A stretch of 64,000 nt of DNA, taken from assembly GCA_023634235.1 (NCBI GenBank), contig JAMKCF010000002.1:15681091-15745090 (forward strand), written 5' to 3'. Positions within the stretch are counted from its first letter, which is position 1; every line of letters begins with the position of its first letter. The notes beneath the pieces were generated by a model. The model was not told the origin of the DNA. It was given only the letters and a program-made list of their open reading frames with translations, and did not search any database. This DNA comes from Pisaster brevispinus. Lineage: Eukaryota; Echinodermata; Asteroidea; Forcipulatida; Asteriidae. Both the position numbers and the translations under genes were made by a program. Below, in pieces: positions 1,018-58,053 of the stretch.

Positions 1018-2259
1018 CTACAGTTTGAGTTCTGTGTACACGTCGAGTGTGGGTTCTTGTGGACTGAGCTCCATGTATGGATCTTTCTGTCCCATTACAC
1101 CCGTCTGATTGGAAGGCGTGTTCGTATCCTCGTGTGCCCCTCTATGATTGGAAGTAGAAGGGTTCACATTCGCGTAGTTCTGAAGCTCTGCATTGGTTGT
1201 AGACGAGGTCTGTCTATCTTCCAGTATGGCAGTGGCATAAATATGGGGTGGATTCTGCTGGTTTGGACCCGTGTCTGAGGTGGTATTACTTCTCATTTTA
1301 CGCTGTCTGTTGAGTTCTAGTTCGGTCTGGTTCGGGTCTCTTGACTGTCTTCTCCGGATGGTGCTACCGAAGAAGCCGCCGAAGTTGAGGAGGTATGACT
1401 TTGGTTTGTAGCGGCAGCAGATGGTGTGGATGAGGAGGAGGAGGAGAAGCAGCAGCAAGAATGCACCCACTGCGATGCCGATTATTGCAGTAATTGGAAG
1501 AGCTGGTTCTCCGGTAGGTAGTATCTGAGGCAGTCTGGGCGTGGTTGACGACGTCAAAGGAATGACCGTCAATGGTCCTATCTTGCAGGAAAGAACGGTC
1601 CATTTTTGATTATCTGGTGTTATTGAGAAACAGAAAAATATGACTCCACCATCTGACACTCTGACACTCTTCTGCAACTGTGATCCTGAGTCGTTTACTG
1701 CTAGAGGAGTCTCGACCCAATCTGTCCTTTCTATAGGTTCGCTCGTATCACTGGCCACTGGGGTTCTTTCATCAATGACTGTTCTACATGTCATATGGTT
1801 TCCCTCGTTCACAACTGCCGGACCGTCTGGGAAACAGACTGGAAACTCTTCGGTTGAGTTTACCGTAAGACGACCTTCTCCATTGGTAATTGTAGTTCCA
1901 TTGTCTTCCTCAATAATGACGCACAGGTATGACCCTGCATCAGTAGATGTAAGGTTGGTGATTGTGAGGTTTTGAGAATACAGTTTCACTGTTTCTTCAA
2001 CTAGATCAGCAGCGCTGAAGGAAATTCTCTCATTCGCCATGACTTTAGAGTAAGAAGAACTAACATAACGCTTCCAGGTAAAATTGTGTAAATCCGGGTC
2101 AAAGCCAGAAGTGAAGCAGGTTAGAGTAACAGTGTCGTTCTCGACTGGTTGCTGAGGCGAAATTGTTACGGGTGAGACTGTGACCTGACAATGACCCGTT
2201 GATGGAAGACACAGCCAGAGGAAGACGAAACAACCCCCGATAAAGTAAAGATTGCCCAT
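1018..2259 (-). CDS. R1: single-exon IgSF receptor with ITAM-like tail (subfamily A)
   Basis: A predicted type I membrane receptor of 413 residues. Residues 1-24 form a signal peptide ending at Cys24 before Gln25. Residues 25-133 form a V-set-like Ig domain with Cys48, Trp62 and the D107-A-G-S-Y-L-C113 signature. Residues 134-233 form the four-cysteine second domain (C142, C158, C210, C225, then IGPLTV). A Ser/Thr/Pro stalk leads to a leucine-rich membrane segment at about 254-280, followed by CCRYK. Tail tyrosines are Y341, Y362 (YANV, a YxN Grb2-type site), Y395 (YMEL) and Y408 (YTEL). The last two are 13 residues apart, which fits ITAM-like spacing. Several NxS/T sites suggest glycosylation. 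The ectodomain, stalk and membrane part resemble R2, but the distal tail resembles R4 and R7, so the gene looks mosaic. Ligand and cell type are unknown. Confidence 0.88.
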   Translation of the reverse strand: MGNLYFIGGCFVFLWLCLPSTGHCQVTVSPVTISPQQPVENDTVTLTCFTSGFDPDLHNFTWKRYVSSSYSKVMANERISFSAADLVEETVKLYSQNLTITNLTSTDAGSYLCVIIEEDNGTTITNGEGRLTVNSTEEFPVCFPDGPAVVNEGNHMTCRTVIDERTPVASDTSEPIERTDWVETPLAVNDSGSQLQKSVRVSDGGVIFFCFSITPDNQKWTVLSCKIGPLTVIPLTSSTTPRLPQILPTGEPALPITAIIGIAVGAFLLLLLLLLLIHTICCRYKPKSYLLNFGGFFGSTIRRRQSRDPNQTELELNRQRKMRSNTTSDTGPNQQNPPHIYATAILEDRQTSSTTNAELQNYANVNPSTSNHRGAHEDTNTPSNQTGVMGQKDPYMELSPQEPTLDVYTELKL

Positions 2260-4846
2260 GTTAGAAGGCTGAAACTTTCACGATGTTTTCAATCCACGTC
2301 ACAGTTTTGTGCCAAACAGTAGCAAAAAATCGACTGCGTCTCCGGCACCACAATATAAAACAGTATTGAAGATAATCCAAATGAAATAAGTTGTTTTAAT
2401 TGATTAATGACAAATGATCAAAGGCTTTATGCACAACAGGCAAAATCAATAAATGAACTTATCATCGAAAACCCTGCGTGCAGTTCGAGTGGTTATCAAA
2501 TGAAATCATCCACAAATCACTCACACAAGCAAAACAACTCTCTCCATTTGATAACAAGTATGTGGTCTGCTGGGATCATGTACACTACACCTTTCCTGGA
2601 CGGTCACCTACTTCCTTATGGAACCCACAAGAGCAGTACAAATCACACCAGCAGCACTAGGTCGTCTGGACTGTGGGGTAGCAGTCTGAATTCGAGCAGT
2701 CAGGCTGCACATTAAAACAACAACTGCTATCAAAACATGATTTGAATAAATAGGTTCTTTACAATTTGTGAACTCTGGTGTGATGTGTTCATATCTGCAC
2801 CAACTGGTATGGGAGTTCGGTTATTCGTGTGCTGTGAACCGTGGAAGTAAACTTCATGGTACCAATATTATACTGTGAGAAGTGAGTCCCTGTGTTACAT
2901 TGAAAGGTGTTTTGCTTTTAAATACCACTGAATATGATTCAATATATGACAGCATCATTGCATCTGTCCAAACAGTCTACACAAAGATAACTTCATCTGG
3001 AATGCTGCAACGAAGGAAAGTTGGTATTACAAGATTCCATGAAATCGAGGTTTTTGTGAACTCGGTTTCGTGACGTCTTGCTAAGGAAAACAATCGGCTA
3101 AATTAAATCTCAGTGGTTGGGTGATGACTTATTTGAAAAAAACTTAAATAATTGATATCTTAATCAATGACCTCATCATAAAAACTAGGTCAAATTATTT
3201 TGTATGATACAATTTTGGTTAATTCAAATACAATAATCTGAAACTTAGTTTTAAAATCTCCGTCAGTAAAGCATAAATGAAGGCCATAAAAACTATTATT
3301 ATGTTACAACTTCACTTAATGTATATCACTAAACTAATTATAGTCAAACGCAGACCATCAATTTTAAACGCTCGCCTGCCCACAACCTTCTCTGACGAGT
3401 TTTAAAATGACATCCCTTTAAGTGGATTTAAACGAAAATTGACAAATGTCCAAAACTATTGGTAGCAACATATAGAACTTGAACCAGTTCGGCCAGACAT
3501 TTCAAGAATCCAATCGTATTCATGAGTTGTTACATGAATATTGCAGTGTCATTCATAGCATTCTCTGGACATTTGAAAATACCCGGCAAATTATTACTTG
3601 GTGCTACAGTAAAAAAGAAGAAGACTTATTCTACATCCATCTTCCATCTTTGTAACCAATGGTGACAGACAGCCAATCTTTCATAAACATCTTCTTAGAT
3701 GACCTTTATAATTAACTAAAGATTTGTCATAATTGACTCCATTTCATTGTTTTGGAAGAGTCTGACTTTTAACTCTTTCTAGATCTAGCTGACAATAGAA
3801 CCCAGTACTGATGACGTCATGGTTTGTTTATTGCATTGCTTAAGTGATATAACTGGGTACTGTATTTCCGACAGTTGTGCAGAGACACAATGGGTTCCCA
3901 TTCTTCTGTAAAATAGTGAACAAACTGTGACGTCATCGGTAATAAGGTCTATACACTTCGTACGTTTGGACATGTGAAAGTGCGCGATACAGAGATTAGA
4001 GGAAAACATTCACTTGTTTAGAGCAAGGTAGGCGGGAAACCAATGTTCACGTAAAAAGTGCATGTTTCAACGAATTTTTGTACGGTCATCCACCTCTTGG
4101 AAGACAAAAAAAAAAAAAAAAAAAAAATGCGGCTCAATTAAGAGGAGAGCGAGATTTTTGCACATTTTAAATTTCGTTTTCAGCATTAACGGTGGGTTAA
4201 AGTGTAAACTAGACTCATCGAATGTGCCAGAAAAATCCATACTCCATAAAACTGTTAAGAAAATGAGTTCTAACAATTTCGAATGTTGCATTTAAATAAC
4301 TGATTTAATAGTGGTGTGTAGTTTGACTTATATCATATGTTTAATCCCCTTGTCTGCCTTCAAACTCATGCTTCCAAACCGAGGCTAAGCGTTTGAGTAG
4401 TGTGGTGATATCGATGTGTATTTTATATCTCTGTTACTTACAAGGAACTCGACATGGCCACGATGCATCAAAGCTAAACAAAGTTATATAAAGTTATATA
4501 TCAAATTGAATTAAACAATTTTATGATTATGTGGTGATGAGTATACTAAAAAGCCTACTATAGTAAACGTTACTCCTGAATTTTCACATGTACATGTACG
4601 TCCAGGAAATGGTTTATATATTAAACGCGATACCATTGGTTTTTATAATCTATTCCGATACAACAGTTATAGTCGTAATAATAATACAATCAACAGCAAA
4701 CATATTACCCTTTACTAGGACATCTTTCCATAGTTCCCATTTTCCTTTTTACTTATTTGAAACCATTTTGGGTCTCCTGTAGCAGCACCCCTTGACTACA
4801 AAAACAACAACATTGGGTATTCTTCTGGCAAGTGTCAATTATGGTT
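2260..4846. other. intergenic: 5' flank of R1 and unassigned sequence
   Basis: About 2480-2880 is homologous to about 6295-6660, upstream of R2. Shared blocks include AATGAAATCATCCAC, the CTCCA-TTGAT block and TATTCGTGTGC. This shows that the promoter-side DNA was duplicated with the genes. An A run lies at about 4107-4126. A TATAAA-type sequence is visible near 2353 but is not oriented for R1. Nothing else with coding support is seen, and short frames here lack recognisable domains. Confidence 0.6.
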
Positions 4847-6052
4847 TCAATCACTGAGATTGTCATCGTCACTCACTGCATCAGCTAACTGCTGCTTCAG
4901 GTCCTCGTTCCAGTAAGCATCCTCCTCAGGATCCGTCTCACGTTGAAATGATGTCCCGGGATTCGTTTGAGCCACATAGATGTTCGGCTCGATCTTGACG
5001 ATTGGCAAGACGCTAGGGTTACCGCCGTCGTCAAATGAGAATCTTACCTGATCACCTTGAGCTGGGTAGGGTTCGTCACTGCCGTCGGGGATCTGTCTGT
5101 CGAGTTCTACTTCGGTCTGGTTCGGGTCTCTTGACTGTCTTCTCCGGATGGTGCTACCGAAGAAGCTGCCGAAGTTGAGGAGGTATGACTTTGGTTTGTA
5201 GCGGCAGCAGATGGTGTGGATGAGAAGGAGGAGGAGAATCAGAAGCAAGAATGCACCCACTGCGATACCGATTATTGCAGCAATTGGAAGGGCCAGCCCT
5301 CCGCTAGGTAGAATCTGAGGCAGTCTGGGCGTGGTCGACGACGTCAAAGGAATGACCGTCAATGGTCCTATCTTGCAGGAAAGACTCGTCCAGTTTTGAT
5401 TCTCTGGTATTATTGAGAAACAGAAAAATGTGACTCCATCATCTGAAACTCTGACACTCTTCTGCAACCGTGATCCTGAGTCGTTTACTGCTAGAGGAGT
5501 CTCGACCCAATCTGTCCTTTCTATAGGTTCGCTCGTATCACTGACCACTGGGGTTCTTTCATCAATGACCGTTCTACATGTCAGAATGTCCCCATCGTTC
5601 ACAACTGCCAGAGCGTCTGGGAAACAGACTGGAAACTCTTGGGTTGCGTTTACCGTAAAATCAACTTGTCCATTCGCAATTTTATTTCCATTGTTTTTCA
5701 TAAGAATGACGCACAGGTATAACCCTTCATCTGATTTCGTGAGGTTGGTGATTGTGAGGCTTTGGGAATAAAGTTTTACTATTAAGTCTGCAATTAGGTT
5801 AGGAGGGCTGAAGGAACTTCTGTCATTCTGTGTGACATTAATGAGGTAAGACGAATTATGAAATCTTTCCCAGCTAAACAAATGGGTTTTAGGGTCGAAG
5901 CCAGTAGCCAAGCAGGTTAGAGTAACATTACCGTTCTCGAGTGGTTGCGCAGGGAATTTCTTTACATCGGAGACAGTGACCTGACAGTGACCCAGAGACT
6001 GAAGACAAAGCCAGAGGAAGACGAAGCTCCCGATTAAGTGGATGTTGCCCAT
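4847..6052 (-). CDS. R2: single-exon IgSF receptor with acidic, non-YxxL tail (subfamily A)
   Basis: A predicted type I receptor of 401 residues. The signal peptide is residues 1-23 and the mature chain starts at Gln24. The V-set-like domain has the usual Cys, Trp (SWERF) and D-E-G-L-Y-L-C signature. The second domain carries FPVCFPD, LTCRT, FFCFS and LSCKIGPL. The membrane segment lies at about 251-278, followed by CCRYKPKSYLLNFG and RRRQSRDPNQTE, nearly as in R1. After that point the tail is unlike any other copy: it runs through an SFDDGGNPS stretch and ends in an acidic EEDAYWNEDL...DDDNLSD segment. Its tyrosines are Y329, Y359 (NIYVAQ) and Y380 (YWNE, a YxN Grb2-type context). It has neither the C-terminal YMEL/YTEL pair nor ITIMs. 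It is either a distinct signalling type or a copy whose tail was replaced. Confidence 0.87.
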   Translation of the reverse strand: MGNIHLIGSFVFLWLCLQSLGHCQVTVSDVKKFPAQPLENGNVTLTCLATGFDPKTHLFSWERFHNSSYLINVTQNDRSSFSPPNLIADLIVKLYSQSLTITNLTKSDEGLYLCVILMKNNGNKIANGQVDFTVNATQEFPVCFPDALAVVNDGDILTCRTVIDERTPVVSDTSEPIERTDWVETPLAVNDSGSRLQKSVRVSDDGVTFFCFSIIPENQNWTSLSCKIGPLTVIPLTSSTTPRLPQILPSGGLALPIAAIIGIAVGAFLLLILLLLLIHTICCRYKPKSYLLNFGSFFGSTIRRRQSRDPNQTEVELDRQIPDGSDEPYPAQGDQVRFSFDDGGNPSVLPIVKIEPNIYVAQTNPGTSFQRETDPEEDAYWNEDLKQQLADAVSDDDNLSD

Positions 6053-6880: not shown

Positions 6881-7386
6881 ACTTAACAAGATCAAAGCGC
6901 TTCACAGCGAGCCTAGAACCTACATTGGTATTAACAGATCCTAACGTTTATAATATTGATAGGGTCACTGTGCCCCAAGTACATTGTTCATGGGGGCACA
7001 TACTTGCCCCCAAGTTTTGTGTGTGTGTGGGCTTGTGTTGCCTAATAATGATAGGGTCAGGTGTGCCCCAAGTTTTGTTTGTGTGGGCATGTGTTGCCTA
7101 ATAATGGTAGGGGTCGGTGTGCCCCAAGTTTTGTATGTGTGGGCATGTGTTGCCTAATAATGATAGGGGTCAGGTGTGCCCCAAAATGTTAATCTTTTCT
7201 AAACCGGGTTACAAACACCATTTTTCGGCACGACATAATTTTTATGAGGTTGTTGATATTATAAACAGCTTTGAATACTTTGGCGCTTACAAGAATGTGT
7301 ATGCTTGTTTCCTTTTTGAGTATTTTGGGTATTTTATACAGCGACTTTAACAAGAGCAAAGCGCTTCACAGCGAGCCTAGAACCCA
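6881..7386. repeat. ~57-bp minisatellite bracketed by ~43-bp direct repeats
   Basis: Three to four copies of a unit of about 56-59 bases (landmark GCCCCAAGTTTTGT...GTGTTGCCTAATAATG) lie at about 6967-7185. GCCCC starts occur at 7006, 7065, 7121 and 7178. Near-identical sequences containing CAAAGCGCTTCACAGCGAGC lie on both sides (6881-6923 and 7344-7386) in the same orientation. The origin is unknown. It could be the inside and ends of a small transposon, or a recombination product. Confidence 0.7.
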
Positions 7387-8619
7387 CTGAAAGGTTTTTG
7401 GGTAACCTTTTGAATATCAAAATTGAAGAAGAGTCTAAAAAAAAATGACACATTGCAAAAAAAGGTCGAACAATGTCAAAAAGATTATCAACTAAGTCTA
7501 TTAATGACGATTGAAGTTGGATGGCAACAGTATAAGTAATAAATATATAAAATAAATCGTCTCTTGGCAGGTTCCTGCAAAAACCTTTATGGCGTCTGCC
7601 ATCTTGGAAATTGCATTTCTACTTAAAAGAAATAGCTAGCAAATTTGTACAAAACACATTGCAAGAAGTATTTCTAACGAGCTTTCATTTCTCTTTCAAA
7701 TAATCCAAAACATTGAGTAAAACATGAAGATAAGATCAAGTCCTAAATAAGTGGCGGGACTCTCGATCGACAAGTCTCATTTCGGAATCTTGGGAAAACA
7801 GCATTACAAATGGCTATAAATCTAATCAAAGGTATACAATAATTGGAAATGAAATGGATTAAAAGTAAATGTTATTAATGACAAAATATAACCTGTGCAC
7901 AATAGTGGTTTAAAAATTGGTAGCTCTCGGTTTGTTGTTAAAATTGTTACTGACTAATTTGCGATGGTTTCTCTTAATAATAATAAAAAATGTCTATACA
8001 GTTTTTCTGTTCTTGCCCGGCCGTGTTCTTCAAATGATACCCAGCATGGATTCCACACGACACCGACCTAACTTCCGTGTTTATTGTTCATTTTTCCAAA
8101 AATGAGACTCCATTATAAAACTAGTCTGGTCTGGAGAATACAAAAATAAGATTTGTTTGATATGTTCTCGATCACCTTGATCTTATGTTGTTCGCCTCGC
8201 ACGCAAGCTTATAAGAAAACTCTAGGGGTAGTCAAATGTAAAGACCTGTCACGATGATTTGTTGATATATTTGTAAGCAAGTTCGCCCCAAACAAGGCTA
8301 AGCCACTCTTAATAAGGGGACGCAATAAGAAAGAATTAGGATGACAATAACTCAGGGGAGCTGAAGGTTGAAATTGAAATTCCTCTTAAAACATTCCTCG
8401 TTGGAGGATGTAGAGACAGTTGCACCAAGCACGGGGTTCCAAAGAGATGCAGTTCGTGGAATAAAACTGTTGGATTGGCCCTTCGTTCGAGAGCAAGCAG
8501 AAAGCCTGGTTTCATGCTTAAACATCCTGATAGGAGGAACCAGGTTGGACACACTGATGGCACATTTACCATTACAATTTATGTGGAAAAGACAAAGGCT
8601 GGCCACAGACTTGTGGTGG

Positions 8620-9380
8620 GAAAGAGGTTGTAACGAGATTGCAGTTCACCACAGTTTTATACCAAATTTATATTGGGTGGTGGGAGGGGGAGGGCGGTAT
8701 GTTAAACAGTGTTTCTTGGCCTTTCACTTCACTGTCAGGTTAGAGTCCTGACTTGAACCAAAACAGGTATCTATAAAGGATGCAAAAAGGGGTAACAAAT
8801 TGGGGTTGGGCGAGGAAGGGTTGGGATACCACTCAGCTTGAATACACTGCCGAAAGCTCAGTTAGGGGAAACGTGACAAATAATACTTGCTGCTTTTTGT
8901 TTAAAACTGTATGCAGACACTTTATTAAAAAAAAGTTACAAGACTTAAAACAAAACAAAACATATTTTACTTATGCAGCTTTCAATAATTTCTTGATTAA
9001 ATTGAATAAATAACATACGCGTTTTAAAAGTTACGTAGTAATATAGTACAATAGGCCCCTTACATTGGCCGCCATCACTGAAGTCAAACAATGGCAACGT
9101 GCACGCTCACACGCGCCACGCCCAACTCCCAGCAATGACTGGTCTTCATTGACCTCAGTGAGGGCGCTGTTCGAGATTGTGACGTCATATGCAAGGGGTC
9201 TACAGATTAATATTTTGTGTGTGCAATGTCACACGAGGCAATTTTTTTGGCAACCGTTCTCAAGAAATTTTTAAGAAAATTATAAATTTCAAATATTTCA
9301 CTTTTTTTCCAGGTTCTCTAAAGTGTGATATATTTTCTTTGGGATTGTCAGACTCCTTGAGAAATGCTTCGATTTAATTG
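8620..9380. repeat. segment X, copy 1 (duplicated intergenic block)
   Basis: The block starts at GGGAAAGAGGTTGTAA and contains GATGCAAAA, a GGGG/GAGGAAGGG stretch, ACTGCCGA-AGCTCAGTTAG and GCAGACACTTTATT. It ends near CAGACTCCTTGAGAAAT. The same order of landmarks is present at about 22860-23430, and the first part at about 14576-14877. It marks the intergenic portion of the duplicated receptor unit. No protein is recognised in it. Confidence 0.7.
9052..9202. mobile_element. MITE-like element, ~150 bp, TA-flanked
   Basis: Ends are complementary: TA-GGCCCCTTACAT on the left and ATGCAAGGGGTC-TA on the right, with TA at both sides as in Tc1/mariner-type insertions. It interrupts segment X, whose copy at 23250-23300 lacks it. 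A related element in the opposite orientation lies at about 23913-24066, sharing GAGGGCGCTGTT and GTGACGTCATATGCA. It is non-coding. Confidence 0.6.
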
Positions 9381-10365: not shown

Positions 10366-11940
10366 CTACACGCGAATATCAGCATAGAGAGTTTCTTGCG
10401 GTTTCCCCACTTGTTTGTTTGTGTTTTGTCCTTCTTTCTCAAAATCTAGGTCTGCATAGACGACTGTCTGGGACGACCCTAACTCCACCTCTTGAGGGAC
10501 CTCGTCACGTCTTGAAAACTTCTTGGGCTTCCTCACCGGCTGCTCAGATTGTCCAGTCGTGCCTGCTATCTGCGAACTGTCTCTATTGGCGTCTGAGTTG
10601 TTTCCATCGCATTTGTTCACCTGAGCGTAAACTTGCGGTGTTTGGTGCGGGGGATCCGGCGCTCTAGCCGGGCCTCTCCGACTATGGTTTTGTTTGGTGG
10701 TTGCAAGGGGGTTGTCGGTGTCATCGTGTGGTTTGTGAGGAATTCCAACGCTGGGCTCATGGTCAGACGGATGTTGACAATCACTGCTGACATTAGCACC
10801 GGCTACTGCAATGTTCAGGTTTAGACGCAGGGCAATGTTCAAGTCTGGTTTGAGGGTAATCCCACTTGATTCTGCGTAGATATTCGACTCACATCTCAAT
10901 CGGCCAGGTTGGGAAACTTCCATTGAGTGCTCTTCCAGAACAGAAGTGTAGGAAGGAGGTATATCATCTCCTTCCCTACCCATCATCACATCAGGAGGAC
11001 TCCTGGAAGTATCTTCACGAGCCTGTGAGGTTTCCCGGGAGCTGCCGCAGTCAATGAGGTAATCTTTTGGGTGAATCCACCGCCTTGGATCGCATCGACA
11101 ACACAGAGTATGTATTGCAATGATAATGATGAGGACGACCACTCCAATGACGATACCGGTGATTTGACCAGCAGACAGACCTGTTTTTACGACTGTTATA
11201 CCGATAGTTGTTACTTTGGGTGATATTGTGGATTCGCTGTCAACAACATTCAAAGGTCCAATAGTGCAAGACAGATTCATGTCGGACGCTGGTATTTTAG
11301 CCACACAGAAGTACGCTTGTGAATTGTCTGAGGTTGTGACATTTTTTAAGAGGTCCGCTCCACCATTCTGACCTGTATAAATTTCCCATTCACCATTTTC
11401 TCCATTAATCGATGGAGTTGCGCTACCAGATGTAGAGCAGGAGATTGAACTTCCAACGGTTAATGCCACCGGACCGTTTGGACTGCAGGACGGGAAGGCG
11501 TCTCTGGGGTACACCGACAAAACTAATTTCTTGTCCAAGACTCCGACAGAAGATGTGTTATCAATTTGATGAATAAGATTGCATACGTATGTACCGTTAT
11601 CAGAAATCTCTGCTTCACTGATTGTTAAATTAAAGGTAGAAATCACATCCTCTGTGAAGCTAACGCGATATCGCTCATCGCTAACAAACAAGTCATTACT
11701 AGTAATAGTAGAGACACCACTTGATATCACGACCCAGGATAGGAAATGAATCGAAGCATTAAAACCAGTCACCTGACAGAGAAGACTGACCGTTGTTCCC
11801 TCCTGCTGCACCGTCATGTTGGGAGAAACTTCAAGAGTCATTGATGGAACTGACTGACAACGAACCGAGAGTATCAGCGAATAAACCATCAATGCTAAAC
11901 ACCAAACACCTTTCCCAATGTCTCTACGCTGATCCTCCAT
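10366..11940 (-). CDS. R3: single-exon IgSF receptor with ITIM/ITSM-like tail (subfamily B)
   Basis: A predicted type I receptor of 524 residues. The signal peptide is residues 1-28. The V-set-like domain has C55, W69 and D114-N-G-T-Y-V-C120. The second domain has C152, C168, C212 and C225 followed by IGPLNV. The membrane segment is about 259-279, followed by LCCRCDPRRW. The long tail of about 245 residues holds Y438 (VYAQV), Y495 (VVYADL, a canonical ITIM pattern with V at -2 and L at +3) and Y519 (TLYADI, ITSM-like TxYxxI). In vertebrates such sites recruit SHP-1, SHP-2 or SAP-type SH2 proteins, so an inhibitory or switch role is inferred. The ectodomain and juxtamembrane region closely match R6, but R6 has a short ITAM-like tail. 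The two form a candidate inhibitory/activating pair. Confidence 0.88.
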   Translation of the reverse strand: MEDQRRDIGKGVWCLALMVYSLILSVRCQSVPSMTLEVSPNMTVQQEGTTVSLLCQVTGFNASIHFLSWVVISSGVSTITSNDLFVSDERYRVSFTEDVISTFNLTISEAEISDNGTYVCNLIHQIDNTSSVGVLDKKLVLSVYPRDAFPSCSPNGPVALTVGSSISCSTSGSATPSINGENGEWEIYTGQNGGADLLKNVTTSDNSQAYFCVAKIPASDMNLSCTIGPLNVVDSESTISPKVTTIGITVVKTGLSAGQITGIVIGVVVLIIIIAIHTLCCRCDPRRWIHPKDYLIDCGSSRETSQAREDTSRSPPDVMMGREGDDIPPSYTSVLEEHSMEVSQPGRLRCESNIYAESSGITLKPDLNIALRLNLNIAVAGANVSSDCQHPSDHEPSVGIPHKPHDDTDNPLATTKQNHSRRGPARAPDPPHQTPQVYAQVNKCDGNNSDANRDSSQIAGTTGQSEQPVRKPKKFSRRDEVPQEVELGSSQTVVYADLDFEKEGQNTNKQVGKPQETLYADIRV

Positions 11941-12725
11941 GGTCGTGTGTTGACTACACCGTGATGTGAATATTCAGTATATGATGGAACACGACTCTAC
12001 TTCTGTGGCCTCAATGTATATGTGTTGTTCACCATGGACTGCTAAAATATTCTTGTGTTTAGCATGCCTACATCAACTTGAAAGTGAATGGGTTGATATC
12101 AACCTCGCAGTCTGGCCCAAGTCTCAAAACTGATTTCTGTACTCTGTCTGCGCACATCAAGTTAGCGCAACATCATTTAAATACGGGTTTAATCAAAGCC
12201 CAGTTTCCTTGTTATGAGCACTTTTACGCAGCTGTCAAGAACAGGGTCGTGACCTCTGTAATATGCACATTTCTGGGGGTAAATCTGTGGTTGCTTTAGA
12301 ATTAAGGATTTTATTGAGTATGTAGTGTGCTGTTCTCGGTTTCTGCTTTCCTACGCACTTATATCAACACTGGTTGATACTGATATGGGGAATACATTTT
12401 TTTTATGAAAGATTATTTTGAAAAGGTTTTGACTTCTGACATTCTGTGCTTAACGAATATCAATTCAATATATAAATACACAATGATACAATATTTCCGT
12501 GTAAGGAAATGCAGTTTTTAAAAGTAAAACTTCCATCCTGACAGTTCCAAAATTAAGTTAAGTATGTTCATTATAGCTATGATTGGTAGTGTAAGGGGAG
12601 TTTTTTCCGTTTTTGTCAATGTTCGATTGCAGATTGTCAAAATCCGTTACGTGTGGTCAAAGTTTTATGAACAAGTTTTGAAAGTTGGCGACATTTCCAA
12701 CGTGAATTCTCAAGGCTAGGTTCTC
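11941..12725. other. R3 5' flank joined to R4 3' flank
   Basis: About 11941-12310 matches the region upstream of R6 (19625-20045), with landmarks TGATGGAACACGACTCTACTTCTG and GCGCACATCAAGTTAGCGCAA. About 12360-12725 matches the 3' flanks of R1 and R7. The segment links the B gene and A gene of the first cassette. No gene is seen. Confidence 0.7.
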
Positions 12726-13871
12726 CTACAGTTTGAGTTCTGTGTACACGTCGAGTGTGGGTTCTTGTGGACTGAGCTCCATGTATGGATCTGTCTGTCT
12801 CATTACATCCTTCTGATTGGATGGCGTGTTCGAGGAAGGTCCTGGGCGGGAGAGATCCTCGTGTGCCCTTCTATGATTGGAAGTAGAAGGGTTCACATTC
12901 GCGTAGTTGTGAAGCTCTGCATTGGCTGAAGAAGAGGGCTGCATATCTTCCAGTATCGCAGTGGCATAAACATGGGATGGATTCTGCTGGTTTGGCCCCG
13001 TGTCTGAGGTGATGTTACTTGTCCTTTTACGTCCGTTTATAAAGTGTAAGACTAGGATGGTAACCAGAACAACAAGAAGGAATACCCAGATTGTTACACC
13101 AAAAATTACACCGTCAGAGAGGCCGGGTTTGGCAAGAGAATATGCTCGATATGTTGCTGGCGTTGGGTACGGGATGACCGTCAATGGTCCTATCTTGCAA
13201 ACAAGAGACGCCCAGTTTTTATTCTCAGGCGTATTTGAAAAACAGAAAAATGTGACTCCATCATCTGAAACTCTGACACTCTTCTGCAATCGTGATCCTG
13301 ATTCGTTTTCTGCAAGAGGAGTTTTGTCCCAATCTATCCTTTCTATATGACTGCTCGTATCACTGACCACTGGGGTTCTTTCCTCAATGACCGTTCTACA
13401 TGTCAGAATGTCTCCCTCGTTCACAACTGCCGGACCGTTTGGGAAACAGACTGGAAACTCGTCGGTTGCGTTTACCGTAAAACCAACTTGTCCATTCCCA
13501 ATTATATTTTCATTGTCTTTCGTAATAATTTCGCACAGGTATAACCCTTCATCTGATTTCGTGAGGTTGGTGATTGTGAGGCGTTGGGAATAACGTGTCA
13601 CTAAGCCTGCAATTAGGTTAGGAGGGCTGAAGGAGATTCTGTCAGTCGGCATGACTTTGACATAAGACGAATTATAAAATCTTTGCCAGCCAAAGAGGTG
13701 AGGGTCGGGGTCAAAGCCAGACGTGACACAGATCAGAGTTACATCACCATTCTCGACTGGCTGCGCAGGGAAGCTGGTTACAGTGGCGACAGTGACCTGA
13801 CAATGACCCGGGGATGGAAGAAAAACGCACAAGAAGACAAAACAGCTACCAGTGATTGAGATGATTCCCAT
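12726..13871 (-). CDS. R4: single-exon IgSF receptor with ITAM-like tail (subfamily A)
   Basis: A predicted type I receptor of 381 residues. The signal peptide is 1-24. The V-set-like domain has C48, W62 and D-E-G-L-Y-L-C. The second domain has FPVCFPN, LTCRT, FFCFS and LVCKIGPL. The stalk and membrane segment (KPGLSDGVIFGVTIWVFLLVV...) differ from R1 and R2 and are shorter, and the membrane-proximal segment is basic (GRKRTSN). Tail sites are HVYATAI, Y323 (YANV, YxN Grb2-type), Y363 (YMEL) and Y376 (YTEL). It is the A member of the first B+A cassette and corresponds to R7 in the second. The start is the only Met directly preceding the hydrophobic leader. Confidence 0.88.
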   Translation of the reverse strand: MGIISITGSCFVFLCVFLPSPGHCQVTVATVTSFPAQPVENGDVTLICVTSGFDPDPHLFGWQRFYNSSYVKVMPTDRISFSPPNLIAGLVTRYSQRLTITNLTKSDEGLYLCEIITKDNENIIGNGQVGFTVNATDEFPVCFPNGPAVVNEGDILTCRTVIEERTPVVSDTSSHIERIDWDKTPLAENESGSRLQKSVRVSDDGVTFFCFSNTPENKNWASLVCKIGPLTVIPYPTPATYRAYSLAKPGLSDGVIFGVTIWVFLLVVLVTILVLHFINGRKRTSNITSDTGPNQQNPSHVYATAILEDMQPSSSANAELHNYANVNPSTSNHRRAHEDLSRPGPSSNTPSNQKDVMRQTDPYMELSPQEPTLDVYTELKL

Positions 13872-14876
13872 GTTGGATTGTTTCTTCCTGGTTCTTAGTC
13901 GCTAGTCCGAACCAAATTAATTCAGAGCAGTTCTGCTAAAGTTTTTCCAGATGAATATGCATAAAAATAGTTACAAAGATTACATGCCTGTAGATCTTCA
14001 AGCACATACATCAAATAAGGTTCTGCTTTGCAAGTTCATCCACAATGTCTAACCACAAACGAAGAAGCAAAACTCGATAAAGACAGTATACAATGTTTCC
14101 AACGCCACTCGTTGATTCTGTTTGCACCAACCAGCACAGGTATTCGAAACGCAGATTCAGACTGGAGACAAACAAGTCCAGCTATTTCAGTTTCCTCAAA
14201 ACTTTCTATGAGTATGTCAGACCAGACTTTTTTTATAACTGCATTTAGGCCTACTGTTAATTTATAAGTAGTTGTCAAAATTGTTTGGTCCGATTTCTAA
14301 TATTGAAAGAAATTCCACAACCCGGAACTAAACTGAAAACTGAAAACCCACTGGCATATTCATGTGTAATAATTGCTTCAGGCATAGACCTAGTCAGTTT
14401 GTTGGTTGGTTGTGGTCATGATACGCTTCCCTCCACCAAATGATTTGAATGAACCATTCATGTGTACCGAACCCTGAAGTCAATAACTGCTTTTATGGTG
14501 ACGCAGTTATATTTTCATCAGTCGTTTTTCGAAACTTCATTTGCATATTACCAGCTTTAGCTGTTCTGTTCATGATGATGGGAAAGAGGTTGTAATGGGA
14601 ATGCTACTCAGCTTTATACCAAAGTAATTTTGGTCGTGAGGGGGGGGGGGGGGGTCGGTCGAACAGTACTCCTTTCACTTCCCTGGATTCAGGTTAGAAT
14701 CACGACTCGGTTAAAGACATGTTTATCCTTTATAGGATGCAAAAGGGTTAAAACATAGGGGTTGGCGAGGAAGGGGTGGGGTGCCATTCTATTTGTTTAC
14801 ACTGCCGACAACTCAGTTAGCAACTCATGTAAAAACAGCTCTACTTTTTGTGCAACATTTTATGCAGACTCTTTAT
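13872..14876. other. R4 5' flank followed by segment X, copy 2 (partial)
   Basis: About 13872-14560 is very close to the R7 upstream DNA (22237-22850), with long near-identical runs such as the stretch before CTGGCATATTCATGTGTAAT. From about 14576 to 14877 the first part of segment X follows. It ends abruptly inside GCAGACTCTTTATTTA, where the R5 membrane-segment coding sequence begins. A G run of about 15 lies near 14640-14654. Confidence 0.7.
13951..13966. promoter_or_regulatory. octamer-like/AT-rich promoter block upstream of R4
   Basis: GAATATGCATAAAAATAG sits about 85 bases upstream of the R4 start codon. It aligns with GAATATGCAAATAAAATAG upstream of R7 and GAATTTGCAAATAAAA upstream of R5. 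The R4 copy is the degenerate one. Whether it binds a POU factor or serves as a TATA-like element is unknown. Confidence 0.25.
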
Positions 14877-15719
14877 TTAAGACGAGGATGGTAACCAGAC
14901 CAACAAGAAGGATCACACAGATTGTTATACCAGCAATTACACCGACAGAGAGGCCAGGTTTGATGATGGGAAAGAGGGAAAATCTGTTTGAAGTGTTGTT
15001 GGCGTGTTGAATGGGTACGGGATGACCGTCAAGGGTCCTATCTTGCAGGAAAGAGACCTCCACTTTTGATTCTCGAACGTGACTGAAAGACAGAAAAATG
15101 TGACCCCATAATCTGAAACTTGTACAATCTTCTGCAACCGTGATCCTGAGTCGTTTACTGCTCTAGGAGTTTTGTCCCAATCTGTCCTCTGTATAGGACT
15201 GCTCGTATCACTGACCACTGGGGTTCTTTCATCAATGACCGTTCTACATGTCAGAATGTCTCCCTCGTTCACAACTGCCGGACCGTCTGGGAGACAGACC
15301 GGAAACTCTTCGGTTGAATTTACCGCAAGACGACCCTCTGCATAGGTAGTTATAGTTCCATTGTCTTTCTCAAAAAAGTCGCACAGGTACGACCCTGCAT
15401 CAGTAGATGTAAGGTTGGTGATTGTAAGGGTTTGAGAATACAGTTTTACTGTTTCTTCAACTAGATAAGCAGGACTGAAGGAAATTCTGTCATCCGCCAT
15501 GACTCCAGGGAAAGAAGAACTAACATAACGCTGCCAGGTAAACATGTGTACATCCAAGTCAAAGCCAGAAGCCAAGCAGGTTAAAGTTAGAGTGCCGTTC
15601 TTGATTGATTGCTGAGGCAAAACTGATACAGGAGAGACAGTGACCTGGCAATGACCCGAGGATGGAAGACAAAGCCAGATGAAGACGAAACAGCTTCCAA
15701 TGATATAGTTGACTCCCAT
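14877..15719 (-). pseudogene. R5: truncated, frameshifted subfamily A receptor (possible soluble form)
   Basis: The open frame from 15719 to 14937 gives 260 residues: signal peptide 1-24, V-set-like domain with the D-A-G-S-Y-L-C signature, and the full second domain to LSCKIGPLTV. It then leaves the family frame in the stalk. Relative to R7 there are about 11 extra bases near 14957-14972, which shift the frame. The membrane segment (PGLSVGVIAGITICVILLVG) continues in another frame and ends at LNKESA-stop near 14860. The cytoplasmic tail is absent, because coding DNA is joined at about 14877 to segment X. The V domain is R1-like, while the stalk and membrane part are R7-like. It is probably a pseudogene. 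If transcribed, it would encode a secreted two-domain protein. Confidence 0.8.
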
Positions 15720-18463: not shown

Positions 18464-19624
18464 CTAAAGTTTAAGTTCTGCATACACAGATGGTTTCTTG
18501 TCTGCGATGTTTAGTTCCATGTAGGGATCTGCTTGCTTAGAGCTGGTAGCTTTCTCTTGTTCAACGGGTGGATTAGAGGGAAGACAAGGCTGGGATTTGC
18601 TGACTGAATTTTCTTCCGGGACTGAACAGTATACATGAGGTACGTCATTTCCTTGCCTACCCATCATCACATCAGAAGGACTCATGGAAGTATCTTCACG
18701 AGCCTGTGAGGTTTCCCGGGAGCTGCCGCAGTCAATGAGGTAATCTTTTGGGTGAATCCACCGCCTTGGATCGCATCGACAACACAGAGTATGTATTGCA
18801 ATGATAATGATGAGGACGACCACTCCAATGACGATACCGGTGATTTGACCAGCAGACAGACCTGTTTTTACGACTGTTATACCGGCAGTTGTTATTTTGG
18901 GTGATATTGTGGGTTCGATGCCAACAATATTCAAAGGTCCAATAGTGCAAGTCAGATTCATGACGGACTCCGGTATTTTAGCCACACAGAAGTACGTTTG
19001 TGAATTGTCCAAGGTTGTGACATTTTTTATGAGGACCGCTCCACCATGCACACCTGAATAGACCATCCATTCATCATTTGTTGCATTAATCAATGGAGTT
19101 GCGATACCAGATGTAGAGCAGGAGATGGGACTCCCAACAGTCAATGTCACCGGACCGTTTGGACTGCAGGACGGGAAGGCATCTCTGGGGTAAACGGACA
19201 AAACTAAATTCTTCAATAACTCCCCCCTAGAAGTTATTTCGTTAATACGAAGAAAAAGATTGCATAAGTATATTCCATTATCAGTTGTCTTTATTTCACT
19301 GAATGTTAAATTGAAGATTGAAATAACATCCTCTGTGAGGCTAACACGATATCGCTCATAGCTTACAGACAAATCCTTACTGTTAGCAATTATGATAACA
19401 CTTGGTTCCTTTCTGACCCAGGATAGGAAATGAGTCGAAGCATTAAAACCAGACACCTGACAGAGAAGACTGACCGTAGTTCCCTCCTGCTGCACCGTCA
19501 TGTTGGGAGAAACTCCAAGAGTCATTGATGGAACTGACTGACAACGAACCGAGACTACCAGCGAATAAAACATCAATGCTAAAAACCAAACACCTTTCCC
19601 AATGGCTCTACGCTGATCCTCCAT
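18464..19624 (-). CDS. R6: single-exon IgSF receptor with ITAM-like tail (subfamily B)
   Basis: A predicted type I receptor of 386 residues. The signal peptide is 1-28. The V-set-like domain has C55, W69 and D-N-G-I-Y-L-C. The second domain has FPSCSPN, ISCST, YFCVA and LTCTIGPL. The membrane segment at about 255-278 and the LCCRCDPRRWIHPKDYLIDCG juxtamembrane sequence are practically those of R3. The tail then diverges: HVYCSV, then a terminal Y368 (YMEL) and Y381 (VYAEL). These are 13 residues apart, exactly as in R1, R4 and R7, and SVYAEL also fits an ITIM with S at -2. So a B-type receptor body carries an A-like terminal module. It is the B member of the second cassette, adjacent to R7. 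Confidence 0.88.
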   Translation of the reverse strand: MEDQRRAIGKGVWFLALMFYSLVVSVRCQSVPSMTLGVSPNMTVQQEGTTVSLLCQVSGFNASTHFLSWVRKEPSVIIIANSKDLSVSYERYRVSLTEDVISIFNLTFSEIKTTDNGIYLCNLFLRINEITSRGELLKNLVLSVYPRDAFPSCSPNGPVTLTVGSPISCSTSGIATPLINATNDEWMVYSGVHGGAVLIKNVTTLDNSQTYFCVAKIPESVMNLTCTIGPLNIVGIEPTISPKITTAGITVVKTGLSAGQITGIVIGVVVLIIIIAIHTLCCRCDPRRWIHPKDYLIDCGSSRETSQAREDTSMSPSDVMMGRQGNDVPHVYCSVPEENSVSKSQPCLPSNPPVEQEKATSSKQADPYMELNIADKKPSVYAELKL

Positions 19625-21093
19625 GGTCGTGTGTTGACTACACTGTGATGTGAATACTCAGTAATTGATGGAACACGACTCTACTTCTGTGTAGCCTCAA
19701 TGAATGGCTAGTTTCTATATCAGTCGTTACTAATTGTATTGTTCACCATGTACTGGTTAAATATTCTTGTATTTACCATGAGTCTATTCCTACAGCAACT
19801 TGAAAGTGAGTGGGTTGATGTCAACTTCGCAGTCTGGTCACAGTATCGAAACTGATCTCGGTACTCTTTCTGCGCACATCAAGTTAGCGCAACCTTATTA
19901 TAACACGGGAGTAGTTGTCACGGTTTAATCAAAGGCAAGTTTCCTTGTTATGAACACTTTCACGCAGTTGTCAAGAACAGGGTCGTGACCTCTGTATTAT
20001 GCACAATTCTGGGGTAAATCTGTGGTTGCTTTAGAATTAAGAGTTTCCTCGAGTATGTAGTGTGCAATATTCGGTGTCTGCTTTCATACACACCTATATC
20101 AACACTGGTATCAACTACTTGGGTGATACTGAAATGGTGAATCAATATATATATATATTTTTAATATATGAAATATTATTTTGAAAAGGTTTTGACATTC
20201 TGTGATAGTTCTGCTTAACGAATATCGATGCAATACATAAATACAAAATGATACAATAATTCCGTGTAAGGAAAGGCAGTTGTTAAAAGTAAAAACTTCC
20301 ACGAAAATTCCCAAATTAAGTAAAGTACGTTCATTATAGCTATGATCAAAGGCGTAGCGGTGCGGGGGAGGGGCTTTTTTGTCAGTGGTCGACTGCATAC
20401 TGTCAACTTCCGTTATGTGGTCAAGCATTTATGAGAATTTCTTTTAAAGTTGGCAACATTTCCAACCTGAATTCATGACATGTACAGTTTTTTTTGTACG
20501 TACATCTCAAGAGGCTAGGTTATCCTAAAGTTTGATGTTTGTGTACATTTACGCAGTTGTCAAGTTCAGGGTCGTGACCTCTGTATTATGCACTTTTTGG
20601 GGGTAAATCTGCGGGTGCGGAAAGACTAACTATTCCATCGAGTATGTAGTATGTTATATTCGGTTTCTGCTTTCATACACACCTATATCAACACTGGTTT
20701 CAACTACTTGGGTGATACTAAAATGGTGAATCCCATTTGAAATGTTTTGACTTCTGGCAATCTGCGATATTTCTGTGAAATAAATGTCGATATAAGACAT
20801 ATATATACATACACATTGCAACATAAATTGCGAGTGAAGAAACGCATTTTTTTTTTCAAAGTAAAACTTTCATGACAATTTCTCAAAGTAAGTTAAGTAT
20901 GTTCATCTATGATGTTTCGCCTAACTGGTCGCTATTGTTTCGTTGGGAGTCAAGGCTTGACATTTTCAACAGATTGTGAACTTCCGTTACGTGGTCGAGC
21001 ATTAACGAAAAAGTCTTGAAAGTTTGCGACATTTCCAACATGAATTCATGACATATACAGTTTTCTGAACGTAGATCTCAAAGCTAGGTTCTC
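19625..21093. repeat. R6 5' flank and tandem-duplicated R7 3' flank
   Basis: About 19625-20045 matches the R3 upstream DNA. Then two tandem copies of a segment of about 590 bases follow (about 19956-20546 and 20546-21093). The first ends in a decayed version of the A-gene stop region (GCTAGGTTATCCTAAAGTTTGA at 20513-20535 against GCTAGGTTCTCCTACAGTTTGA at the true R7 end). This is the same arrangement as 1-1017. No gene is seen. Confidence 0.7.
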
Positions 21094-22236
21094 CTACAGT
21101 TTGAGTTCTGTGTACACGTCGAGTGTGGGTTCTTGTGGACTGAGCTCCATGTATGGATCTGTCTGTCTCATTACATCCTTCTGATTGGAAGGCGTGTTCG
21201 AGGAAGGTCCCGGGTGGGAGAGATCCTCGTGTGCCCCTCTATGATTGGAAGTAGAAGGGTTCACATTCGCGTAGCTGTGTAGCTCTGCGTTGGTTGTAGA
21301 CGAGGGCTGCGTATCTTCCAGTATGGCAGTGGCATAAACATGGGGTGAATTCTGCTGGTTTGGCCCCGTGTCTGAGGTGGTATTACTTGTCATTTTACGT
21401 CGGTATATAGAATATAAAACGACAGTGGTTACCAGACCAACAAGAAGGATCACACATATTGTTATTCCAGCAATAACACCGACAGAGAGGCCAGTTTTGT
21501 CAGTAGAAACTGTTTGAAGTGTTGTTGGCGTGTTGAATGGGTACGGGATGACCGTCAAGGGTCCTATCTTGCAGGAAAGACTCGTCCAGTTTGTATTTTC
21601 CTCTGCAACTGAATAACAGAAAAATGTGACTCCATCATCTGAAACTTTGACACTCTTCCGCAACCGTGATCCCGAGTCGTTTACTGCTAGAGGAGTCTCG
21701 ATCAAATCTGTCCTTTGGAAAGGACTGCTCGTATCACTGACCGCTGGGGTTCTTTCATCAATGACCGTTCTACATGTCAGAATGTCTCCCTCGTTCACAT
21801 CTGCCGGACCGTCTGGGAAACAGACTGGAAACTCTTGGGTTGCGTTTACCGTAAAACCACCTTGTCCATTCACAATTATAGTTTCATTGTCTTTCGTAAG
21901 AATGACGCACAGGTATAACCCTCCATCTGATTTCGTGAGGTTAGTGATTGTGAGGCTTTGGTAATACGTTGTTTCAATTAGATTAACAGGGCTGAAGGAA
22001 ATTCTGTTATTCGGCATGACTTTGACGTAAGAAGAATTATAAAATTTTTGCCAGCCAAAGAGATGAGCGTCGGGGTCAAAGCCAGAAACGAAGCAGGTCA
22101 GAGTAACATCACCATTCTCGACTGGTTGCGCAGGGAAGCTGGTTACGGTGGAGACAGTGACCTGACAATGACCTGGGGATGGAAGACAAAGGCACAAGAA
22201 GACGAACCAGCTACCAATGATTGAGATGACTCCCAT
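21094..22236 (-). CDS. R7: single-exon IgSF receptor with ITAM-like tail (subfamily A)
   Basis: A predicted type I receptor of 380 residues. The signal peptide is 1-24. The V-set-like domain has C48, W62 and D-G-G-L-Y-L-C. The second domain has FPVCFPD, LTCRT, FFCYS and LSCKIGPL. The membrane segment is GVIAGITICVILLVGLVTTVVLY, followed by basic YRRKM. Tail tyrosines are HVYATAI, Y322 (YANV, YxN), Y362 (YMEL) and Y375 (YTEL); the last pair has ITAM-like spacing. It is closest to R4 in body and tail, and its stalk is shared with the broken R5. It is the A member of the second B+A cassette. Confidence 0.88.
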   Translation of the reverse strand: MGVISIIGSWFVFLCLCLPSPGHCQVTVSTVTSFPAQPVENGDVTLTCFVSGFDPDAHLFGWQKFYNSSYVKVMPNNRISFSPVNLIETTYYQSLTITNLTKSDGGLYLCVILTKDNETIIVNGQGGFTVNATQEFPVCFPDGPADVNEGDILTCRTVIDERTPAVSDTSSPFQRTDLIETPLAVNDSGSRLRKSVKVSDDGVTFFCYSVAEENTNWTSLSCKIGPLTVIPYPFNTPTTLQTVSTDKTGLSVGVIAGITICVILLVGLVTTVVLYSIYRRKMTSNTTSDTGPNQQNSPHVYATAILEDTQPSSTTNAELHSYANVNPSTSNHRGAHEDLSHPGPSSNTPSNQKDVMRQTDPYMELSPQEPTLDVYTELKL

Positions 22237-22321
22237 GTTGGATTGCTGCTTCCTGGTTCTAAGTCGCTAGTCCGAACCAAATTAATTCCGAGCAGTTCTG
22301 CTAAAGTTTTTCCAGATGAAT

Positions 22322-36382: not shown

Positions 36383-37322
36383 TCTGCAATTAATAGTCAT
36401 TCTGGTAGCATCCATTTCTGCGGATTTCATTCGAAATAACAAACCTTGACACGGTAGTTATTTAGTTCCTGTACAAAAGGTTTGGGAAATAAACCAATAA
36501 AGTCCACAGAAGGTTTTCCACACTCACTTCATAACTTCAGTCGCAGCCACACAACTGTACAATAGCGTAAACACGACTATACAAGAGCTGCAAGTCTCGG
36601 TTTTGTTGACACCCACGGTGTTTCTTTGCATACAAAATGGTCGGTTGAGGTTATTATACAGGCACTCCAATCAGCCATTTCAAAGCTTTGTCTGACGTCA
36701 CAATGAGCAAAATTCATTTCAATGACGAGCAGAAATTCAGACACAACTGAACAACATGCTGCGACATTCCAGTTGAGTCATTACTGTTTGTTCACAATAG
36801 TGAAACCAACAATGGTAGGTCACGTGGTACTTACAATAATACTTGGTTCTTGGTATTGTAGCTAGATCAAGGCACTTTATAACATTGCTGTTCCTGTTCA
36901 TCAGGTTTACCTGGACCGATTTGTCAACTTTGTTCAACTCCCTGGTGAGCGAGGTGAACTACTGTAGCGGTGTAAACTGCAATACAGACAGGCCCGATAT
37001 TAATCACCCACTGGTGATGAAAAATTTAGGGGGGAAATATAATATAAATGTCGCGTAAGCGGTTGGTACAAAATGTTTCTGGAAGCAGTCGTTAGCACAA
37101 ATAGTACAACTCTCGAGAAACTTTTAACCCCGAAAAACTGGGGGGGGGGGGGGAGAAAACAACACAACAACGCTGCAAACGGTCTCGAGAACACACGTGG
37201 TCAGCTGATTTTTTTCAATAACTTATTTGGATTGAAGTCGAGTGAGAAGAGCACACGCTGACAATTCAATTCAAACTCACATTAAATTCCAGACTTCATG
37301 GAAATTTCAAAATAATACATAA

Positions 37323-53921: not shown

Positions 53922-53929
53922 GGGGGGGG
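53889..53929. repeat. (GA)n followed by poly-G
   Basis: About 11 GA units run directly into about 19 G bases, forming a purine-only tract. Confidence 0.9.
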
Positions 53930-57153: not shown

Positions 57154-58053
57154 TCATCCCTGTTCAGAACACAATAAGCAAATTATTACAAGGGTGAGAA
57201 GACCGGCTGTGCTGACTTTCACGAGAGGAACCCCATCAGCTGTAAGGGGCCCGATCACGCACGTGAAGGGGTTCCCGTTTTCTGCGTTTGTGGGGATAGA
57301 CCAGCAGTCGAATGTTAGCCCCACATCATCAATTGTCACGGACTTCTTCATTTCGGATCCCGCTCCACCGTCTCTCCGAAGCCCCATGCTCCATGCATCA
57401 TCTGCCACGGTGATGGCGCCTCTCTGATTGACTACAGGGTACCTGTCCTTCGCCAGGGTGCCGCAGAAGATGTTGTCCCCCTCCACCAACGGAGCGGCAC
57501 CGTTCGGGAAGCACACTGGAAACAACTCCGGGAGGTACACCGTCAGGAAGGCCTCCCCGTACGCAACCGTCTTGGATTTGGGGTCCGAGGTGCTGTCCGT
57601 GTTGTTGGTGCTGATCAGTTGACATCGGTAGACGCTCTCGTCTCGCTCCTCAACTGGGTTGATCACCAAACGCTGCACAAAGGCTGAGGTGACTGCAGCT
57701 ACCTCCTCGCTGTGCTTCTGCACCAGGAGGTGAATCCGACTGATAAACAGACGGTGATCAACAGACTTGTGAAGTGCACCATTCGAAGCAATCACTGTCT
57801 CACTCACCGACCCCTTGTAGAATCGCGTCCATCTGACTGTGTGGAAGGCCTCCGAGTAGCCTACGATATCGCAGCGGAGAATCACCATATCTCCTTCCCT
57901 GGGCTCCGGGGTGCTCTCGGGCACGATGGAGAGGGATACGGTGGGCACAGCCGCCTCGGCGAGTAGGGGTCCTATGATCGGCATAGGTACAGCTGAACCG
58001 AGTATCACGGCCGTGCAGAGGAGAACGATGCTGACCATGGTTTCGCCGCACAT
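57154..58053 (-). CDS. R10: IgSF protein with probable GPI anchor (subfamily D)
   Basis: 299 residues. A hydrophobic leader covers about 1-22; Met1 and Met6 are both possible starts. The V-set-like domain has C61, W75 and E-x-D-E-S-V-Y-R-C144. The second domain has FPVCFPN, IFCGT, FDCWS and FTCVIGPLT. The chain ends about 20 residues later: a short hydrophobic segment (VSTAGLLTLVIICLLC) and only four residues after it. With small residues (ADG) just before, this fits a GPI-anchor signal; a single-pass protein with a stub tail is the alternative. There is no signalling tail. PREGD before the first Cys links it to subfamily C. It lies about 20.8 kb from R9 and is visibly GC-richer than the others. 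It could be a decoy, co-receptor or ligand-type member. Confidence 0.82.
   Translation of the reverse strand: MCGETMVSIVLLCTAVILGSAVPMPIIGPLLAEAAVPTVSLSIVPESTPEPREGDMVILRCDIVGYSEAFHTVRWTRFYKGSVSETVIASNGALHKSVDHRLFISRIHLLVQKHSEEVAAVTSAFVQRLVINPVEERDESVYRCQLISTNNTDSTSDPKSKTVAYGEAFLTVYLPELFPVCFPNGAAPLVEGDNIFCGTLAKDRYPVVNQRGAITVADDAWSMGLRRDGGAGSEMKKSVTIDDVGLTFDCWSIPTNAENGNPFTCVIGPLTADGVPLVKVSTAGLLTLVIICLLCSEQG

Follow-up and report, generated by a model that had tools for sequence, protein, structure and literature searches.

A tandem array of single-exon immunoglobulin-domain genes with exchanged heads and tails in the sea star Pisaster brevispinus: candidate paired-type receptors

Ten single-exon genes on one strand

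The window considered here is a stretch of 64,000 bases from Pisaster brevispinus (C2:15681091-15745090, where C2 is contig JAMKCF010000002.1; G+C 39.7%), taken from an assembly of 549.7 Mb in 512 contigs. It holds a cluster of genes for immunoglobulin (Ig)-domain proteins, most of which have a transmembrane (TM) segment and a tail. Based on the list of open reading frames (ORFs) and sequence comparison across the window, ten minus-strand frames, R1-R10, encode related proteins. An initial annotation of the letters alone had proposed ten related genes or pseudogenes on one strand, and this is confirmed, with the addition that each is single-exon and that R5 and R9 are frameshifted. The common ancestry, the several tail classes on related heads and the clustering on one strand that it described are likewise all supported by sequence comparison. 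Each gene comprises a hydrophobic N-terminus, two extracellular domains, a C-terminal part and a stop codon, all without an intron, and an in-frame stop lies 9-123 bases ahead of the first methionine taken in all of them. No further family copies were found within the window by tblastn with all ten (E 0.01). The genes are listed below by head (A-D), TM segment and tail, the last described by its likeness to immunoreceptor tyrosine-based activation, inhibitory or switch motifs (ITAM, ITIM and ITSM, respectively).

R1, 1018-2259, minus strand: head A, TM1, alpha tail (ITAM-like); single open frame
R2, 4847-6052, minus strand: head A, TM1, gamma tail, acidic, with YxN and without Yxx[ILV]
R3, 10366-11940, minus strand: head B, TM1, beta tail with VYAQV, VVYADL and TLYADI; VVYADL/TLYADI spacing 24
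R4, 12726-13871, minus strand: head A, TM2, alpha tail
R5, 14860-15719, minus strand: head A, frameshift ahead of TM2; pseudogene or secreted form
R6, 18464-19624, minus strand: head B, TM1, alpha2 tail (ITAM-like)
R7, 21094-22236, minus strand: head A, TM2, alpha tail
R8, 28395-30260, minus strand: head C, TM1; the long tail is of beta type and carries six 24-residue VYAQV/VYVQV repeats
R9, 34630-36430, minus strand: relative of R8; frameshift in the V domain; four VYAxV-type repeats
R10, 57154-58053, minus strand: head D; short, hydrophobic C-terminus, glycosylphosphatidylinositol (GPI)-like by eye

Extent of the array and of the V-set repertoire

The window is part of a longer array. A survey of the surrounding 235 kb (15.550-15.785 Mb; frames of >=150 amino acids (aa), family match at E 1e-4) recovered 32 family frames, all on the minus strand, between 15.5697 and 15.7749 Mb (~0.2 Mb) of a 32 Mb contig. 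Most are open over 380-660 aa. The map of modules across the array comprises A-TM1-gamma (5), A-TM1-alpha (2), A-TM2-alpha (7, one with merely a 45-residue piece of head and some with broken tails), B-TM1-beta (6), B-TM1-alpha2 (3) and C-TM1-beta (2; R8 and R9), along with one head A lacking a TM match but followed by a 60% alpha tail, one A-TM2 without a tail (R5), three R10-like genes, three distant genes and three loose head fragments without TM or tail. The left neighbour of R1 is a B-beta gene, which fits the block order of the window. At the left end of the array (C2:15569674-15583786; L027, L024, L023) are three distant Ig-type frames, 23-32% identical to the window genes. Two R10-like genes at C2:15770599-15774869 (L020) have a terminal TM segment in place of the short hydrophobic end. 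A further 20 kb at 16.035-16.055 Mb contained no family frame at E 1e-4.

Of 732 candidates in a genome-wide V-set search, at least 150 scored as matches. Most of these fall in long open frames; ten of the 150 listed, by hand count, lie in open frames under 250 aa. The same search of 14 control genomes gave 0 matches. These scattered matches constitute an intronless Ig receptor repertoire larger than the window shows. They occur on C7 (2.7-3.5 and 15.2-17.8 Mb), C11, C51, C92 and many small contigs (L001-L008, L029-L048). Two of them, L005 and L006, come from separate small contigs and show no difference in the residues compared; haplotigs are thus likely among the 150 and copy numbers are rough. 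Four matches (L003, L007, L036 and L046) form another V-set family with the N-terminus MASP..LCW and frames of up to 986 aa, with a Thr/Ser-rich stalk in L003 and L007.

Mosaic genes

Some genes have parts with different nearest relatives. R1 tracks R2 as far down as window position 1303 and R7 at lower positions; the switch point at 1302/1303 corresponds to coding base 957. Three segments of the window belong to this mosaic and to a block duplication.

R1 tail and 3' flank, 73-1302, minus strand: 88% match to 20168-21399 (R7), extending 0.9 kb past the stop
R3-R4 block, 10956-14530, minus strand: duplicated as the R6-R7 block, with BLASTN segments of 83.5, 87.7 and 92.8%
R6-R7 block, 18637-22858, minus strand: partner of 10956-14530

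The R3-R4 block has its edge within the R3/R6 gene, where head and tail meet. R3 and R6 share 103 consecutive codons (residues 218-320) without a synonymous difference, a run equalled in 0/5000 permutations; the same type of test on four other gene pairs gave 15, 83, 251 and 1049 of 5000. By MaxChi (R1, R2, R5), the R1 head is R5-like on the left and R2-like on the right (0/2000), with values of 0-64 of 2000 for nine other triplets.

The cleanest case involves a gene beyond the window. R1 and the gamma-tailed gene C2:15592155, 90 kb away, are identical at 1475/1489 upstream positions (99.1%) and 924/957 positions of the head (96.6%), then at 563/1376 (40.9%) past it, and the best change point is again coding base 957. 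Between R1 and the alpha-tailed C2:15666507, the likeness (96.8, 93.2 and 89.5%) extends to about base 2217, counted from the start. The gamma gene C2:15595947 matches the alpha gene C2:15603858 at 659/690 head positions (95.5%) and at 44.7% thereafter; for beta C2:15678778 and alpha2 R6 the figures are 89.7% over 1000 head bases, then 43.7%. V domains of up to 99% identity sit on genes with unrelated tails, and the related heads with differing tails of the initial annotation prove to be a stronger feature than was claimed.

Mosaics of this kind could also be assembly chimaeras, pseudogene debris or haplotypes placed in tandem, in an array that is decaying or misassembled. R5, R9 and several array copies are indeed frameshifted or shortened, and the identity of L005 and L006 makes haplotigs likely in the counts. 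Yet the array lies on a large contig with most of its frames open, the A-TM1-gamma, A-TM1-alpha, B-beta and B-alpha2 combinations each recur at the counts given above, and the R8 and R9 tails are under purifying selection (ratio of nonsynonymous to synonymous differences, pN/pS, 0.49; p 1e-8). Decay or misassembly is thus regarded as quite improbable.

V domains, second domains and tail classes in trees

On the V tree of 14 head-A genes, the tail/TM label changes eight times (shuffled mean 7.5; as low in 181/200), and on that of nine head-B genes twice (shuffled 2.7; as low in 165/500). The V trees show no clustering by tail class. Trees of the second domain (D2) require four changes for the head-A genes (as low in 1/200 shuffles) and one for the head-B genes (14/500), indicating that D2 moves with the tail more than V does. 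One gene, C2:15638948, was omitted from these label-change trees by the motif filter and included in the clade-constraint tests. The latter reject a single clade for the gamma V domains (p 5.5e-6) and for the alpha V domains (p 2e-51); a single gamma D2 clade is also rejected (p 6e-5), at a smaller loss (26 vs 299 log units). The nearest V domain belongs to another tail class in 9/14 head-A genes.

A second family with the same pattern

Outside the array, 28 places were fetched, 24 of which have a frame holding a TM-like segment. Fourteen of these frames are alike in V and C2 domains, and with L006 (one of the identical pair) omitted, 13 entered the trees. Six have an ITIM-like end, spaced 24-25 in four of them (YA[DE]L to YAEI) and 27 and 39 in the remaining two. 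Among the remaining seven, six have YTxL-x12-YQxL, and L005 lacks the middle site. Compared in 60-base windows, L044 and L043 keep a likeness of 82-100% up to about base 1020, counted from the start codon, and drop to ~45% beyond it. The tail class changes four times on the V tree of this family (shuffled ~4.5, not clustered), one V clade for the ITIM-like group is rejected (p 0.0077), and the C2-domain tree needs three changes (p 0.017). The second family accordingly repeats the pattern of similar heads on two tails.

Both L044 and L033, a more distant protein, score well above the cut-off of the Pfam V-set model. L044, L029-L031 and L033 share the tail end YADLDL-x19-YAEI or near variants. 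The L044 tail resembles that of SIRP-alpha; a PDB sequence search with it does not show this likeness, its 13 weak matches all being to other proteins.

Tail classes and their motifs

R1, R4 and R7 have one common tail (alpha), of which the R6 tail (alpha2) is a diverged copy (shuffle z 8.9 vs R1 and 9.7 vs R7; 0/500). Both contain two YxxL sites at a spacing of 13. In R3, R8 and R9, the beta tails terminate in one ITIM-like and one ITSM-like site at a spacing of 24-25 (IIYADL...TVYAEI, spacing 25, in R8), and [SIVL]xYxx[ILV] and TxYxx[VI] are found once each in all three. The R3 tail is weakly like those of R8 (z 3.3, 1/500), R9 (z 2.6, 8/500) and R6 (z 3.2, 2/500). The gamma tail of R2 is unlike those of R1, R7 and R6 and weakly like those of R8 and R9 (z 2.6; 14/500 and 8/500). 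The ITAM-like pattern arises in 0.4-1.3% of shuffled tails, and Yxx[ILV] counts exceed those of shuffles in R3 (0.0067), R8 and R9 (0/3000 each). Three pairs of alpha tails gave pN/pS of 0.51-0.87, none significant.

The spacing of tyrosines was followed in 51 tails, from 28/32 array proteins and 23/28 sampled places. The last two Yxx[ILV] sites are 24-26 apart in 11/51 tails and 13 apart in 8/51, many of these tails being copies. Spacings of 13, 16 or 24-26, a set picked after the tails had been inspected, occur in 20/51, against a shuffled mean of 0.53 and maximum of 3. The 24-26 spacing, known beforehand from the window, was found again in 5/23 sampled tails outside the array.

These two distinct spacings, the wider recurring outside the array, also speak against a paired architecture in which all tails have the same sign, with alpha recruiting phosphatases too, or beta kinases. 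Such an arrangement would draw on the similar terminal YxxL/I motif shared by alpha, alpha2 and beta, on the second alpha2 site, SVYAEL, which also fits an ITIM, and on the non-classical x9 of alpha. Overall, it appears very unlikely.

Extracellular domains

The first domain had been proposed to be Ig-like, and it is recognized as a V-set Ig domain by the Pfam V-set/Ig model above cut-off and by a predicted V fold. The four-cysteine domain reported beside it is itself predicted to be Ig-like. Pfam at E 1 gives no sushi match, the V domain being accompanied by a single Ig-like domain. Variability is higher in V than in D2 (mean entropy 0.78 vs 0.38, p 2e-6; 15 genes). No KIR or LILR chain is among the 60 best of 6543 PDB matches, and a presumed likeness of D2 to the four-cysteine domain of CD2/SLAM was considered, with no such chain among the 50 matches listed, which excludes nothing. 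Scans of viral and prokaryote contigs returned 15 and 24 pattern matches, respectively, with no relative among them.

Among those 50 matches, D2 is nearest to D2 of Rst, a fly adhesion protein. YxxL is also compatible with YxxPhi sorting signals. An alternative reading is that the genes encode intronless, kirrelL-like proteins for adhesion or cell fusion in development, with tail tyrosines serving endocytosis or adaptor binding and not immune signalling. Echinoderm kirrelL is itself an intronless Ig transmembrane gene required for cell fusion, as summarized in PMC8903837. A large tandem family with exchanged tails, and the paired spacing of the last two tyrosines across those tails, weigh against it, and this reading is considered unlikely.

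Proposed mechanism

Homology, the single exon, the mosaics, the array and the repetition in a second family are observed, and the folds are predicted. On this basis, these single-exon germline genes probably encode single-pass receptors of the paired type. Immune cells are their most likely site, and recombination probably reassorts their heads and tails. Phosphorylation of the tails, their SH2 partners, the sign of the signals, a ligand and the immune role are what we infer beyond this. The V domain would bind ligand, the second Ig-like domain would act as a stem and the tail would determine the output. Once phosphorylated, alpha tails could engage a Syk-type tandem-SH2 kinase, and the two ITIM/ITSM-like sites of beta tails an SHP-type tandem-SH2 phosphatase. 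The gamma, secreted and GPI-like forms may be ligand competitors, or signal otherwise. Because the genes are in tandem, on one strand and without introns, unequal crossover and gene conversion within the open frame can reassort heads and tails; these would have joined a given head to a different tail and distributed V domains over the tail classes. A retroposed founder gene is a natural guess for the intronless state.

Several results weigh against the paired-receptor reading. V variation is not enriched in loops resembling complementarity-determining regions relative to strands (p 0.47, 15 genes), and no significant excess of nonsynonymous over synonymous substitution was detected, with dN/dS (omega) of 0.50-0.91 in V and 0.55-1.21, from few changes, in D2. 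Omega exceeds 1 only in D2 (R1/R2 1.21, R1/R7 1.06; not significant), and residues 1-66 of R3/R6 have a pN/pS of 2.4 with a Fisher p of 0.69. ITIM counts taken singly are near chance (0.03-0.09 for the broad and 0.20-0.25 for the strict pattern, vs shuffles). An ITAM is classically Yxx[LI] x6-8 Yxx[LI], with up to x12 in broad use; the x9 of R1, R4, R6 and R7 fits the broad form and is wider than the classical one. D2 clusters by tail class on both the head-A and head-B trees, and the nearest V is on another tail class in only 2/9 head-B genes; exchange is thus recent for head A and older for head B. Finally, the most recent swaps are between alpha and gamma, and as gamma lacks Yxx[ILV], these are not a plain on/off pair.

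A bolder extension is offered tentatively. The scattered genes may form a large germline combinatorial system in which V cassettes and tails are interchangeable modules exchanged within one open frame as tandem copies recombine, a new specificity could be coupled to either output, and the gap separating the final two tyrosines (13-16 vs 24-26) might largely set kinase- versus phosphatase-type output.

Other features of the window

Searches of the window for tRNA genes, and for Rfam families at gathering score, were negative, and ten other ORFs have no Pfam match above cut-off. Pfam searches gave 0 families at E 0.01 on both strands of 37.0-56.6 kb and 0 families on the minus strand of 6.2-10.2, 22.6-28.3, 30.5-34.6 and 58.3-64.0 kb. 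The repeats and element-like segments are as follows.

7008-7184: 56-base tandem repeat, 3.1 copies, in the R2-R3 interval
8352-8645, minus strand: ORF resembling a non-LTR (long terminal repeat) retrotransposon end by eye; without a Pfam match
8614-8865: adjoins that ORF; 74% match to 14576-14820
28667-29083 (R8) and 34927-35201 (R9): 72-base tandem repeats encoding the 24-residue VYAQV units

Comparison with known systems

The genes combine near-identical extracellular regions, different tails and clustering, as paired receptors do. The organization had been likened to KIR/LILR-type loci or Hydractinia Alr, and of this the paired architecture stands, while membership in those families is unsupported and the likeness is one of analogy. 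KIR and LILR genes devote one exon to each Ig domain and Alr genes are multi-exon, whereas in the window genes one frame spans everything from the signal peptide to the stop. Vertebrate paired receptors are subject to exon shuffling, and many of their activating forms engage adaptors via a charged TM residue. Here there is a single exon, and in all eight genes that have both a TM segment and a tail the best 19-residue TM stretch is free of charged residues. By analogy, the array may work like vertebrate paired receptors, Botryllus FcoR or Alr. XFL, KIR, LILR and SIRP likewise have similar extracellular regions with differing TM segments and tails, birth-and-death evolution and intergenic recombination. 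For Xenopus XFL, exon recombination has been proposed, as summarized in PMC2413239.

Among invertebrates, the clustered fester co-receptors of Botryllus, FcoR, are described as having a V-type Ig domain, a sushi domain, two C2 domains and tails with ITIM or hemITAM, and one FcoR locus can have either output through a motif swap by alternative splicing (summary of PMC12065747). Hydractinia Alr is outlined as an Ig superfamily gene complex of 41 reported members with ITIM/ITAM-type motifs and a function in allorecognition (PMC11999971, PMC12065747). The present array differs from FcoR in its separate intronless genes and its shorter architecture lacking a sushi match, and from Alr in being single-exon.

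Sea urchin Sp185/333 proteins are not known as Ig receptors with signalling tails. Their genes resemble the array in being clustered immune genes diversified by gene conversion, duplication and deletion, according to the summary of PMC5103432. Oyster CgIgIT2, comparable to the putative receptors with ITAM-like alpha tails, is an invertebrate Ig receptor with an ITAM and is said to recognise microbes; it has five Ig domains, and neither an array nor tail exchange is mentioned in the available part of PMC11999971. Echinoderm kirrelL, for which an origin by retroposition has been proposed, has in common with the array the structure of an intronless Ig-domain transmembrane gene alone. It is a single developmental gene, and array or tail exchange is again not mentioned in the available part of PMC8903837.

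No intronless paired Ig receptor array with head/tail mosaics was found in the literature, as covered in part by titles and the starts of abstracts. What sets this array apart from known paired receptors is that everything is in one exon, with the alternatives being separate genes made by recombination. As introns are absent, the route is recombination within the open frame and not exon shuffling or splicing. How diverse recognition is coupled to opposite outputs in animals without rearranging receptors is an open question, and one route is readable here in the DNA, where the same upstream region and head stand on different tails with the switch point located to the base. Together, these genes provide a model of paired-receptor origin, for which the second family in the same genome is a replicate.

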